Below, piece by piece: positions 40,004 to 43,715 of a stretch of DNA of 64,000 bases. A program made the translations under genes and the position numbers. The notes under the pieces were generated by a model that saw only the letters and a program-made list of their open reading frames with translations, had not been told where the DNA came from and ran no database searches. Each line of letters opens with the position of its first letter. The stretch's first letter is position 1. Source of the stretch: Deltaproteobacteria bacterium (lineage in GTDB: Bacteria > Myxococcota > Myxococcia > Myxococcales > SZAS-1); NCBI GenBank assembly GCA_018266075.1, contig JAFEBB010000005.1:62001-126000 (forward strand), read 5' to 3'.

Positions 40004-40861
40004 TCAGTTTTCCGCGGGCTTGGCGATCCCGGCGGCTTCGTTGAGGCGGCCGCTGCGAAAAGGCTCGAGATCCACGGTGACGAACTTGAAGCCGCGCTTC
40101 GCCAGCGCCTGCTGCGCGGCCGCGCGCACGTCGGGATCGAGCATCTTCGGGAGCTCTTCGGCGGACAGCTCGATGCGCGCGATGTCGCCGTGGTAGCGCA
40201 CGCGGAAGTCGCGCAGCCCGAGGGCGCGCAGATCTTTTTCCGACGAGCCAATCTGCGTGAGCCGCTCCACGGTCACGCTCGTGCCGTACGGCAAGCGCGA
40301 GGCGAGGCAGGGCGTCTGCGGCTTGTCCCAGGTCGGCAAACCCAGCAGCAGCGAGTGCGCGCGGACTTCGGCCTTCGTGAGCCCGGCCGCCGCGAGCGGG
40401 CTCTTCACGCGGTGCTCTTCGGCGGCGCGGTGACCGGGGCGATAGTCCTTCTTGTCGTCGGCGTTGAAGCCGTCGACGACGGCCGCGAGCTTCAGCTCCG
40501 CCTGCTTCGCGTCGCAGATCGAGTACAGCTCGCTCTTGCAGAAGTAGCAGCGGTTGGTCGGGTTCGCGGCGTAGGCCGGATTGTTGAGCTCGTTCGAGTC
40601 GACCACCACGTGCTTCGCGCCGATCTTCTTCGCGAGCGCTTCCGCCTCGGCGCGCTCGTCGGGCGCGACCGACGGAGAGATGGCAGTCAGCGCGATCGCC
40701 CTGTCGCCAAGCTCCTCGACCGCGACCTTGAGGACCAGCGTCGAGTCCACGCCGCCCGAGAACGCGACGAGCACCGATCCGAGCTCGCGCAGCTGCGCGC
40801 GCATGGCGGCGAGCTTGGGCGCGCTCGACGCAGCGAGCGCTCGGGCATCAGCCTCGTTCAT
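40004..40861 (-). CDS. larE: LarE-like ATP-dependent sulfurtransferase
   Basis: This is a 285-residue PP-loop enzyme. The ATP-pyrophosphatase motif VAFSGGVDSTL is near residue 36. The family marker PCLASRLPYG (about 187) contains the Cys that in LarE is the sacrificial sulfur donor or a cluster ligand. NRCYFCKSELY (about 105) supplies two more Cys, so three conserved Cys are present, as in LarE proteins reported to carry a [4Fe-4S] cluster. LarE makes the nickel-pincer cofactor with LarB and LarC, neither of which is here. It sits behind cysC on the same strand, in a sulfur-related group. Confidence 0.85.
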   Translation of the reverse strand: MNEADARALAASSAPKLAAMRAQLRELGSVLVAFSGGVDSTLVLKVAVEELGDRAIALTAISPSVAPDERAEAEALAKKIGAKHVVVDSNELNNPAYAANPTNRCYFCKSELYSICDAKQAELKLAAVVDGFNADDKKDYRPGHRAAEEHRVKSPLAAAGLTKAEVRAHSLLLGLPTWDKPQTPCLASRLPYGTSVTVERLTQIGSSEKDLRALGLRDFRVRYHGDIARIELSAEELPKMLDPDVRAAAQQALAKRGFKFVTVDLEPFRSGRLNEAAGIAKPAEN

Positions 40862-40910: not shown

Positions 40911-40970
40911 CTAGCGCTTCAAGACGCGACCGATGAAGCCCAGCAGGCGCTTCACTTGGCCTTTTTTTTA
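40911..40970 (-). other. candidate programmed -1 frameshift site at cysC end
   Basis: On the minus strand cysC runs GCT AAA AAA AAG GCC AAG TGA. The last A of the first Lys codon plus the next two codons form A_AAA_AAG, the dnaX-type slippery heptamer. After a -1 slip the frame continues as GQVKRLLGFIGRVLKR and TAG at 40911-40913, with strong G/C third positions. A GCGCT/AGCGC hairpin lies downstream at about 40917-40903. The eight-A run could also be a sequencing or assembly indel site. Confidence 0.5.
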
Positions 40971-41746
40971 GCGGCCTTCACGGTCTTCGCGGCGCGAGCA
41001 GCCGGACGGGCCTTGCTGCCGCTCTTGTCAGGGCGGCGCGCGGCGGGCGCGGCCTTGGCCTTGGCCTCGGGCTTCGCGGCCGGCTTGGCGGCGGCGGGCG
41101 CGGGCTTCGGCGTGGTGCCGGTGCGGATGTCGGCGGGCTTGGCGCCCTTGGTCTTCTTGCCGGGCTTGCCGCGCTTCATCGACTTGCCCGCGAGGAGGTG
41201 CACCTCTTCGCCGCGCAGGTAGCCGAGGTCGAGCAGGCTCTGGAAGATGCGGTCGGCGGCCTCGGCGACGGCCTCGGAGTCGGTGCGGACCACGACCTCG
41301 GGGTTCGAGGGCGGCTCGTACGGATCGGTGATGCCCACGAAGTTCGGGATCTCGCCGGTCATGGCCTTCTTGTACCGGCCGGTGGTGTCGCGGCTGATGA
41401 GCACCTCGACCGGGCAGTCGACGAAGACCTCCACAAAGCGGCCGATCTCGCGGCGAAGCTGGTCGCGCGCATCGCGGTACGGCGAAAGCGCCGGGACGAT
41501 GGCCACGCCCTGGGCGCGGGTGATGCCGCGCGCCGTGTAGCCGAGGCGCTTCACGAGCAGGTTGCGCTCTTCCTTGGTCTCGCCGAGGCCCTTGGCGAAC
41601 AGCTCCGCCGTCTCGTTGCCCTCGAGGACTTCAACCGGTCGGCCCAAGGCGTTGAAGCGACCCGCGAGGTACTTGGCCAGCGTGGTCTTGCCCGCGCCGT
41701 TCATGCCGGTGAGCCACACGGTGAAACCGGTCGAAGAGGTGGTCAT
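40952..41746 (-). CDS. cysC: adenylylsulfate (APS) kinase with Lys/Ala tail
   Basis: This is a 264-residue protein. Residues about 1-185 are an APS kinase that phosphorylates adenylylsulfate to PAPS: the P-loop TGMNGAGKTTLA (about 14), an FVDCPVEVLISRDTTG strand, and GEIPNFVGITDPYEPPSNPEV. Compared with usual GLSGSGKST the P-loop is variant but intact. A tail of about 75 residues rich in Lys, Ala and Pro follows. It ends at TGA 40952-40954 just after the heptamer A_AAA_AAG. Slipping back one base there would read GQVKRLLGFIGRVLKR and stop at 40911. ATG 41746 was chosen because the upstream residues are not APS-kinase-like. Confidence 0.85.
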   Translation of the reverse strand: MTTSSTGFTVWLTGMNGAGKTTLAKYLAGRFNALGRPVEVLEGNETAELFAKGLGETKEERNLLVKRLGYTARGITRAQGVAIVPALSPYRDARDQLRREIGRFVEVFVDCPVEVLISRDTTGRYKKAMTGEIPNFVGITDPYEPPSNPEVVVRTDSEAVAEAADRIFQSLLDLGYLRGEEVHLLAGKSMKRGKPGKKTKGAKPADIRTGTTPKPAPAAAKPAAKPEAKAKAAPAARRPDKSGSKARPAARAAKTVKAAKKKAK

Positions 41747-41949: not shown

Positions 41950-42387
41950 TCAGCCTGGGTGGCTGGTTGCTCGGGACTGGTGGCTGGCAGGCATCGGGAC
42001 GCTCGCCTCCGCGAAGTCCGCGCCAGTCCAGGTGAAAAGCCGCAGCTCGACGGTCTTTGTCCGAACCGAGAGAACGAGGTGGCGCACGTTCGGTAACACG
42101 GGTTCGCCATCGGCCAGTGCGAGGGTGCGATCCGCTTTTGAAAAATGAGCGTCGGCGTCGACGTGCGAGTGGAAGACGCAGACCACCGGCTCCGGACCCG
42201 AGAAGACTCGCAGCAGCTCTTTCGGCTCCAGAACGAAGTTCGTCCGCGGCGTCGGCGCGACATTGGCGATCGGCCGGGCGCTCACTCGCCCGGACGCTTC
42301 GCGCACGAACACACCGCAGCCTTCCCGCGGATATTCGGCCTCGCAGTGGGCCATCGCGGCCAACAGCGCCTCGGGCGGAAACGTCAT
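41950..42387 (-). CDS. JAMM/Mov34 metalloprotease (JAB)
   Basis: This is a 145-residue protein of the JAMM family, zinc peptidases that cleave isopeptide-like bonds and, in bacteria, amino-acid adducts on ubiquitin-like sulfur carriers. The full signature is present: the upstream Glu in EYPREGCGVFVRE (about 18-25), then H-S-H-x7-S-x2-D in FHSHVDADAHFSKADR (about 74-89). The ATG overlaps the TGA of the preceding E1-like gene by four bases, which implies coupled translation. Its nearest functional analogue is the Mec+ type peptidase that releases cysteine from CysO. The substrate here is unknown. Confidence 0.88.
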   Translation of the reverse strand: MTFPPEALLAAMAHCEAEYPREGCGVFVREASGRVSARPIANVAPTPRTNFVLEPKELLRVFSGPEPVVCVFHSHVDADAHFSKADRTLALADGEPVLPNVRHLVLSVRTKTVELRLFTWTGADFAEASVPMPASHQSRATSHPG

Positions 42388-42830
42388 CGGTGCGTGCAAG
42401 CGGGCAGGGCGACGTGCTCGAGCTTGGCGCCGACGATCTTCCACGCGCGCTCGACGGAACCCATTTCCAGAATCAGCCGCAGCGCTTCACTCGCCGCCAG
42501 CGACGCCGCGATTGAGCCCGACTCGAGCGGAAGTGGCCCGGAAGGCGTCCCGCGACACGACGCGCACGTCGCGCACACGAGCAGCACTTGTGAACCTTCC
42601 GCGCGGACCGTCACGCCGCGCTCGCCAATGCGAAGCTCGAGTCCTGGACCCGAGTGCGCGTCGACGCGCGCGCCCGCGGCGCTCAAGTAGTCGCCGGCGA
42701 GCTCCACGAACTGCCGCTCGCCGCGCACGTGCACTTCGGCCGCGAGCAGCTTCTCCTGGCCCACGCCGCCGACCTCGGGCAGCAGGATGTGCCGCGCGTA
42801 CCGCTGAATCTGGGCTTCGGAGAGCGGCAT
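42384..42830 (-). CDS. shrunken ThiF/MoeB-like (E1) protein lacking the nucleotide site
   Basis: This is a 148-residue protein. The N-terminus LSEAQIQRYARHILLPEVGG, then GQEKLLAAEVHV, is the conserved opening of ThiF/MoeB/HesA E1-like proteins, including the Arg that in MoeB homodimers reaches the ATP of the opposite subunit. The following Rossmann segment has lost the GxGGLG loop (VHVRGERQFVELAG), and the DxD/QR/PK/SDN core is missing. The sequence jumps to a Cys group CATCASC and to SGSIAASLAASEALRLIL, which matches the E1 C-terminal helix. It starts directly after the stop of the full ThiF-like gene (TAGATG) and overlaps the JAMM gene. Confidence 0.75.
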   Translation of the reverse strand: MPLSEAQIQRYARHILLPEVGGVGQEKLLAAEVHVRGERQFVELAGDYLSAAGARVDAHSGPGLELRIGERGVTVRAEGSQVLLVCATCASCRGTPSGPLPLESGSIAASLAASEALRLILEMGSVERAWKIVGAKLEHVALPACTHR

Positions 42831-43715
42831 CTAGCGCTTCTCCACGCGCACGCGGTGGCGCTCGGAATCCAGCGCGACGATCTCGCGCACCTGGTGGCCG
42901 TCTTCTTTCAACGAGCGGGGCACGTTGCGCAACGGCTCGTCGCCACGAAGGACGACGTCGAGCACCGTTCCCTTGGCGAGCGTCTCGAGCCGGAGCTTGG
43001 TTCGCACGTAGGTCATCGGGCAGCGCTCGGCGGTGATGTCGATGGCGAGCGGCGCGCACGTCGGACAATCCGCGCGCGGCGCCAGCTCGAGCTCGCGCGC
43101 TCGACCCGACTTCAAATCCACCGTCCGCAGCGTCGACGCCACGCGCTCACCGCGAAGAAGCTCGAGCGTCACCGCGGCCTGCATCGCGCCGAGCACGCCC
43201 ACCACCGCGCCGAGCACGCCCGCTTGCGCGCAGCTCGGAATCTCGTCGGCGGGCGGCTCCTGCTCGAAGAGACAGCGCACGCACGCGCCGCCTCGAAGAA
43301 CGGGCAAGAGCTGCCCCTGAAAGCGCAGCGCGCCCGCGTGCACGAGCGGAATCGCGAGCCGCATGGCGACGTCGGAGCAGAGGAACTTGGTCTCGAAGTT
43401 GTCCGAGCCGTCGAGGATGACGTCGTGGCCCGCGAAGAGCGCGGCGGCGTTCTCGGCTTCCACGCGGACGACGCGCGCGTCGATGGCGCACTCGGGCGCC
43501 TCGCGAAGGAGCTGCTCGCGCGCGACCTCGGCTTTCGGGCGGCCCACGTCGGCGTCGCGAAAGAGGATCTGGCGCTGGAGATTGGTGATGTCGACGTCAT
43601 CGTCGTCGACGAGCGTCAGCGCGCCCACGCCCGCGCGCGCGAGCACGAGCGCGGCCGGCGAGCCCAGCCCGCCCATGCCGATGATGAGCGCACGCTTGTG
43701 GCGAAGGAGTTCCAA
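42831..43715 (-). CDS. ThiF/MoeB-type E1 enzyme fused to a TusA domain
   Basis: This is a 294-residue protein. Residues 1-215 are an adenylating E1 core: IIGMGGLGSP (about 11), VDDDDVDITNLQRQILF with the catalytic Asp and Arg, GRPKAEVA, GSDNFETKFLCSD (about 108), and zinc CxxC pairs in CVRC and CPTC. Residues 218-294 are a TusA-like sulfur-carrier domain with ITAERCPMTYVRTKLRLE, where the catalytic Cys is followed by PMT rather than PMP. The usual N-terminal RYSRHILLP segment is absent. An in-frame stop upstream limits the start to TTG 43715 or a few codons before. The missing segment occurs in the next gene. Confidence 0.82.
   Translation of the reverse strand: MELLRHKRALIIGMGGLGSPAALVLARAGVGALTLVDDDDVDITNLQRQILFRDADVGRPKAEVAREQLLREAPECAIDARVVRVEAENAAALFAGHDVILDGSDNFETKFLCSDVAMRLAIPLVHAGALRFQGQLLPVLRGGACVRCLFEQEPPADEIPSCAQAGVLGAVVGVLGAMQAAVTLELLRGERVASTLRTVDLKSGRARELELAPRADCPTCAPLAIDITAERCPMTYVRTKLRLETLAKGTVLDVVLRGDEPLRNVPRSLKEDGHQVREIVALDSERHRVRVEKR

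Follow-up and report, generated by a model that had tools for sequence, protein, structure and literature searches.

E1 enzymes of the MoeB/ThiF type, among them E. coli ThiF and MoeB, MoeZ and Uba4, are homodimers with a full N-terminal arm and two active sites. In MoeB, one critical arginine near the N-terminus contacts the triphosphate, as a preliminary description of the locus studied here had stated, and in eukaryotic E1s the critical arginine lies in the inactive domain while ATP is bound by the active domain (PMC9378703). Arg57 has been named as the ATP-site arginine of UBA1 (PMC12355090). Operons with a rhodanese-less E1, SirA/TusA, ThiS/MoaD, a JAB/JAMM peptidase and APS kinase appear in row 4e of Table 1 of Iyer et al. 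2006 (PMC1779556), and SirA (TusA) is predicted there to take the role of rhodanese. Row 4c of the same table includes a cysteine synthase, and Anaeromyxobacter is listed under row 4b, with an E1 fused to rhodanese; a split or inactive E1 is not mentioned in rows 4c and 4e. The CysO-CysM-Mec+ cysteine pathway of mycobacteria combines a ubiquitin-fold carrier, a cysteine synthase and a JAMM peptidase with a full-length, MoeZ-type E1.

The window, by which we mean the whole 64-kb stretch of DNA that was analysed, carries three coupled genes on the minus strand. The first (42831..43715; 294 aa, TTG start) encodes the putative catalytic E1 subunit, here called CAT, in which an N-truncated ThiF/MoeB core (residues 2-218, 43062..43712; PF00899) is followed by a TusA persulfide-carrier domain with a CPMTYVR motif (residues 225-293, 42837..43043; PF01206, 2.8e-14). 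Its TAG stop abuts the ATG, at 42830, of the gene for PSE (42384..42830), a pseudo-E1 subunit of 148 aa that retains the N-terminal arm and, towards the C-terminus, a helix remnant. The PSE gene overlaps by 4 bp (ATGA, 42384-42387) that of a JAMM/MPN+ metalloprotease of 145 aa (41950..42387; PF14464, 7.5e-14), which has the full HSH-x7-S-x2-D zinc signature (HSHVDADAHFSKAD, 42130..42171). In all of these respects (the coupling of the genes, the C-terminal TusA domain and the intact JAMM signature) the preliminary description was borne out. The three-gene arrangement is not a product of chance, since it recurs in about 90 related loci. Two conserved neighbours lie on the same strand, an APS kinase with a low-complexity tail (40952..41746; PF01583, 4.3e-41), which adjoins PSE or JAMM in most loci, and a LarE-type PP-loop sulfur transferase (40004..40861; TIGR00268, 9e-93).

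CAT is homologous to the MoeB/ThiF-type enzymes along its length after the arm and, like them, keeps the nucleotide residues, the zinc cysteines, the catalytic cysteine and neighbouring sulfur carriers. Whereas those enzymes have the full arm, here a second, degenerate protein carries it, and rhodanese is replaced by TusA. CAT is predicted to form a heterodimer with one active site, in contrast to the MoeB/ThiF homodimer with two. In pairing one active with one inactive ThiF-type subunit, of which only the inactive one would carry the N-terminal arginine for the ATP triphosphate, the two proteins appear to follow the same division of labour as the E1s of human SUMO and NEDD8 signalling (SAE1/UBA2 and APPBP1/UBA3) and the IAD and AAD halves of UBA1. 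Unlike in the eukaryotic enzymes, catalytic-cysteine half-domains and a ubiquitin-fold domain are lacking from the myxobacterial subunits (CAT being a bare ThiF core plus TusA), PSE is far smaller, and the genes sit in a setting of sulfur metabolism and not of protein conjugation. Relatives that have a carrier gene fit the class of row 4e, and those that bear CysM resemble row 4c (PMC1779556) and the mycobacterial pathway; the locus in the window combines JAMM, E1, TusA and APS kinase without a ThiS/MoaD gene, and it differs from the mycobacterial pathway in having no CysM.

Division of E1 residues between the two proteins

The match of CAT to Pfam ThiF is strong (E=2e-65) and begins only at profile position 16. 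All of N70, R73, K86, D130 and the GxGGLG motif are present (MoeB numbering, from an alignment to E. coli MoeB), and C187 and the zinc cysteines are also conserved. The predicted CAT core matches E. coli ThiF with a TM-score of 0.86 normalised to ThiF, and fold searches with it returned only ThiF/MoeB. The RYxRQ/H arm that is characteristic of MoeB/ThiF-type E1s is found on PSE and not on the CAT chain, as the preliminary description had noticed. The motif is absent from the open frame upstream of the window CAT, and translation of the upstream sequence at all loci gave no motif with the right spacing, so an arm in an in-frame extension of CAT was rejected; three automatic matches to the motif (L039, L055 and L230) lay upstream of the start codon with the wrong spacing and were discarded on inspection.

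Residues 3-53 of PSE match the N-terminus of MoeB (NCBIfam PRK08762, 1.4e-8; PRK05690, 2.4e-8), and its match to Pfam ThiF is not significant (0.18). A profile built from relatives of PSE covers MoeB end to end (1.7e-27). The same profile aligns with SAE1 (5e-11) and APPBP1 (9e-6) from the arm onwards and with the inactive half of UBA1, whereas its alignment with UBA2 and UBA3 starts only at position 26-31, past the arm. The arm of PSE reads RYARH (42789..42803, minus strand), and its second arginine, R13, corresponds to MoeB R14. By the profile offset it also corresponds to R57 of human UBA1, provided that the equal-length match has no gaps, and to residue 21 of SAE1.

The complementarity of the two pieces extends to their relatives. 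CATs keep N70 in 90/94, R73 in 91/94, K86 in 91/94 and D130 in 90/94 cases, and no CAT linked to a PSE has the arm. All 90 PSEs whose start is intact have an arginine at the position of MoeB R14; N70, R73 and C187 are lost from them, and K86 and D130 survive in one of the 90 each, the middle of the alignment to MoeB being uncertain because PSE is so reduced. That PSE lacks a nucleotide site, and that E1 functions are divided between an active and an arginine-donating subunit, had both been proposed in the preliminary description; the first agrees with these counts, and the second is supported by the complementary residues together with the alignments to SAE1, APPBP1 and UBA1.

We consider it quite probable that CAT and PSE pair as a heterodimeric E1 with a single active site, PSE contributing the arginine and TusA serving as the sulfur donor. 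CAT would hold the nucleotide pocket, the zinc site and the catalytic cysteine, and PSE, as a degenerate E1, would pack in the place of the second MoeB/ThiF protomer and insert R13 at the ATP triphosphate in CAT. The sequences themselves establish that the E1 is split, that the two pieces are complementary and co-occur, and that they are under selection; the complex, the placement of the arginine, the sulfur donor and the end product are inferred from there. For structure prediction, CAT-TusA-PSE was given to AlphaFold2 as one chain with the TAG read as Gln. In the first of two runs, most of TusA and PSE were without alignment, and the second used a trimmed alignment; the CAT core was confident and PSE weak (pTM 0.58 and 0.61), and the interface was not resolved in either run.

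Alternatively, CAT could be a homodimer in which another residue replaces the arm, with PSE acting as a regulator or a scaffold that brings in TusA, the carrier or JAMM. This alternative finds support in G073, where the operon (L259:8210-11767, minus strand) has two CysM genes, a carrier and JAMM, and the E1 is armless with no PSE partner; this genome is the exception to the pattern. A delivery role for PSE would also be compatible with in-frame fusions of PSE to a carrier in three genomes. We nevertheless regard this alternative as unlikely, as the ATP-contacting arginine is the one residue kept in every PSE, and CAT is armless wherever PSE is present and carries the arm in G163, where PSE is absent. 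G163 belongs to another order, and the E1 in its very similar operon (LarE, APS kinase, JAMM, CysM, carrier, TusA and E1) is complete, with the arm RHSRQ. G110, a one-contig assembly of 10.26 Mb, has a CAT without N70, R73 and D130 together with a PSE that has lost its arm and has a broken N-terminus, and is, by its sequence, one case of joint decay of CAT and PSE.

Complete MoeB-rhodanese proteins are encoded elsewhere in many genomes with the split E1. In G005 (one contig, 100% complete) and G012, however, the only ThiF-family matches are CAT and PSE. There is therefore no complete E1 in these two genomes that could lend an arm. The frequent MoeB-rhodanese proteins might suggest that they are the partners of PSE, CAT working alone or also with MoeB-rhodanese, but the two genomes without any further ThiF-family protein, and the position of PSE next to CAT with tight spacing in many loci, make this a very improbable reading.

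Second CAT/PSE pairs without TusA, carrier and JAMM were seen in three places (L256:8541-9922, minus strand; L257:9046-10442, minus; L258:8209-9592, plus). In the three paralogous pairs (G078, G022 and G049) the CATs have lost several ATP-site residues and the PSEs keep the arginine, which counts against the heterodimer reading. The L257 pair lies near genes that resemble moeA and aldehyde ferredoxin oxidoreductase.

Recurrence and history of the split E1 in Myxococcota

A PSE query in 60 genomes of the same order returned short open frames beside E1 genes. Profiles built from these frames were run against 195 genomes of the phylum, and the set of loci retrieved for annotation numbered about 100. 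The comparison thus covers Myxococcota, and other phyla were reached by one contig scan, of which the best 80 loci were kept. Among 94 related loci with a CAT-type or full E1, PSE lies downstream of the E1 on the same strand, at a spacing of 29-943 bp, in 88, which answers the question of whether the two pieces co-occur that the preliminary description had raised. The six loci without PSE comprise two contig ends, three complete E1s and one unexplained case (G073). The split E1 is spread over families of the order and is found in two families outside it (G069 and G165). Of 63 loci examined from the contig scan, 6 were Myxococcaceae with the split, 56 had full-length E1s with the arm and one was unreadable; outside Myxococcota only full-length E1s were found among these best loci.

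The usual operon order is CAT, TusA, ThiS-like carrier, PSE, sometimes CysM, JAMM, APS kinase and LarE. TusA is usually a separate gene in relatives, in contrast to its fusion to CAT in the window. Carrier, CysM and JAMM are variably present, and the genes seen per locus are a lower bound because many fetched stretches are short. Two of the most constant neighbours, APS kinase and LarE, are present even at loci without CysM, carrier and JAMM; at 14 of the 94 E1 loci, TusA, APS kinase and LarE were the only companions of the split E1 in the stretch examined. The HSH-x7-S-x2-D type signature is present in 55 of the 57 JAMMs from these loci.

PSE varies in length across loci, having lost most of the Rossmann fold, and is only about 107 residues long at its smallest. 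This variability, and the broken N-terminus in G110, could be taken as signs of a decaying gene remnant without function. However, dN/dS of PSE is about 0.04-0.17 in 14 close pairs, much as for CAT. PSE is therefore under purifying selection and is not a remnant; its spread over families of the order, and to two more families of the phylum, is likewise hard to reconcile with decay, which we regard as the least probable of the alternatives. A tree of 82 sequences separates all PSEs, which have long branches, from the rest at one branch (99/98), and a single origin of PSE is therefore likely. The history of CAT is less clear than that of PSE, as the CATs need two changes on the same tree.

Unsplit relatives of the system were seen in Bacillota, namely a TusA-CysM-MoeB-JAMM cluster (L095:4490-7187, plus strand) and a full MoeB-TusA fusion (L129:1931-3097, plus). 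At two loci (L038:5123-5869, plus; L041:6171-6695, plus), degenerate cysteine-synthase-like (PALP) genes lie immediately upstream of CAT, with intact CysM in the same operons, and are possibly a second pseudo-subunit. One PSE (L055:6978-7454, minus) apparently begins with CTG, in a CTGA overlap with the carrier stop, there being no ATG, GTG or TTG at the expected place.

Sulfur carriers and end use

In many relatives the split E1 would adenylate the C-terminal Gly-Gly of a ubiquitin-fold sulfur carrier encoded at the locus, a protein like SAMP1 or CysO. These locus carriers end in PAIAGG or PAMAGG, and the four tested match NCBIfam SAMP1 above its cut-off as well as Pfam ThiS. A ubiquitin-fold gene was not found at the CAT/PSE locus of the window, which agrees with the preliminary description, but this does not hold for relatives, where a carrier usually adjoins these genes. 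The locus carrier is missing from several genomes, and a SAMP1/CysO-type carrier is absent genome-wide from 13 of the 24 tested. The genome of the window encodes three candidate carriers on other contigs, one MoaD-like, one ThiS-like and one SAMP1-like, and the carrier of its split E1 would be one of these. The SAMP1-like protein, which ends in GG, is encoded directly downstream of a gene resembling BNR/sialidase-type repeat proteins (L058:320-1770, plus strand). In G005 the sole carrier found is ThiS-like and its gene lies beside genes resembling thiG and thiE, suggesting that thiamine synthesis in this genome can draw on the split E1.

The TusA domain of the window CAT retains its cysteine, in a CPMT motif as against the conserved CPxP. 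In the preliminary description this domain was a possible sulfur acceptor. A conserved C-terminal Gly-Gly is absent among the separate TusA proteins listed, and a donor role is more likely, in line with the replacement of rhodanese by SirA/TusA in the operons tabulated by Iyer et al. (PMC1779556). TusA is probably the sulfur donor, and as a domain of CAT it would provide persulfide sulfur in the way that the rhodanese domain does in MoeB-RHD enzymes.

The JAMM protease may free or trim carrier C-termini; that of the window matches the desampylase model NF041370 at 3.4e-14, below the model cut-off. A single open reading frame encodes both the ubiquitin-fold carrier and PSE in three genomes that belong to one genus (L201:2234-3163, plus; L203:2554-3492, plus; L204:1660-2598, minus). 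These fusions read PAIAGG-APELD...RWARQ, with no stop and no ATG, GTG or TTG between the Gly-Gly and the arm, and would be carrier precursors that need a cut after Gly-Gly.

Where the operon includes CysM, we suspect that the sulfur ends up in cysteine; the adjacent LarE may be another recipient. LarE is a candidate for the end use because it is a constant neighbour, has the RCxxC motif (27/27 long LarE matches) and, as an Fe-S LarE, would take sulfur from outside; RCxxC is the motif type of Fe-S LarE enzymes, which use outside sulfur (PMC9283937). TtuA, an iron-sulfur PP-loop enzyme that works with the thiocarboxylated carrier TtuB (PMC9283937), offers a precedent by analogy for a link between carrier and LarE. 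It is conceivable, though we hold it to be somewhat less than an even chance, that the split E1 mainly serves LarE, with a thiocarboxylated carrier or the TusA persulfide recharging [4Fe-4S] LarE and the sulfur not going to cysteine; this would be compatible with the heterodimer. The constancy of APS kinase and LarE where CysM, carrier and JAMM are missing, the RCxxC motif and the presence of LarC in 9/9 genomes tested all favour such a role, whereas CysM is directly in the operon at several loci, two of which (in f9 genomes) have no LarE nearby.

Implications for E1 evolution

The sulfur-pathway context of these operons is already known. In full-text searches of open papers we came across no account of a bacterial E1 divided in this way, and relative to the open literature searched the split is new. 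The transition from symmetric prokaryotic E1 homodimers to asymmetric two-subunit E1s has been known only from its eukaryotic end product. We lean towards the view that bacteria evolved a heterodimeric E1 separately from eukaryotes, when a MoeB-type homodimer was duplicated and the copies degenerated in complementary ways, and that PSE was reduced in some lineages to hardly more than an arm and a docking scaffold and was fused in one genus to the carrier, behind its Gly-Gly, as a precursor that JAMM would need to cut.

The analysis assigns a function to genes that resemble E1 fragments, and it cautions that CAT should not be annotated as a stand-alone MoeB/ThiF. Given that split and unsplit versions of similar operons occur in related bacteria, the transition can be tested with small soluble proteins, as can the minimal requirement for an inactive E1 half. 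A bacterial lineage seems to have reached the same division of labour between E1 subunits as eukaryotes.
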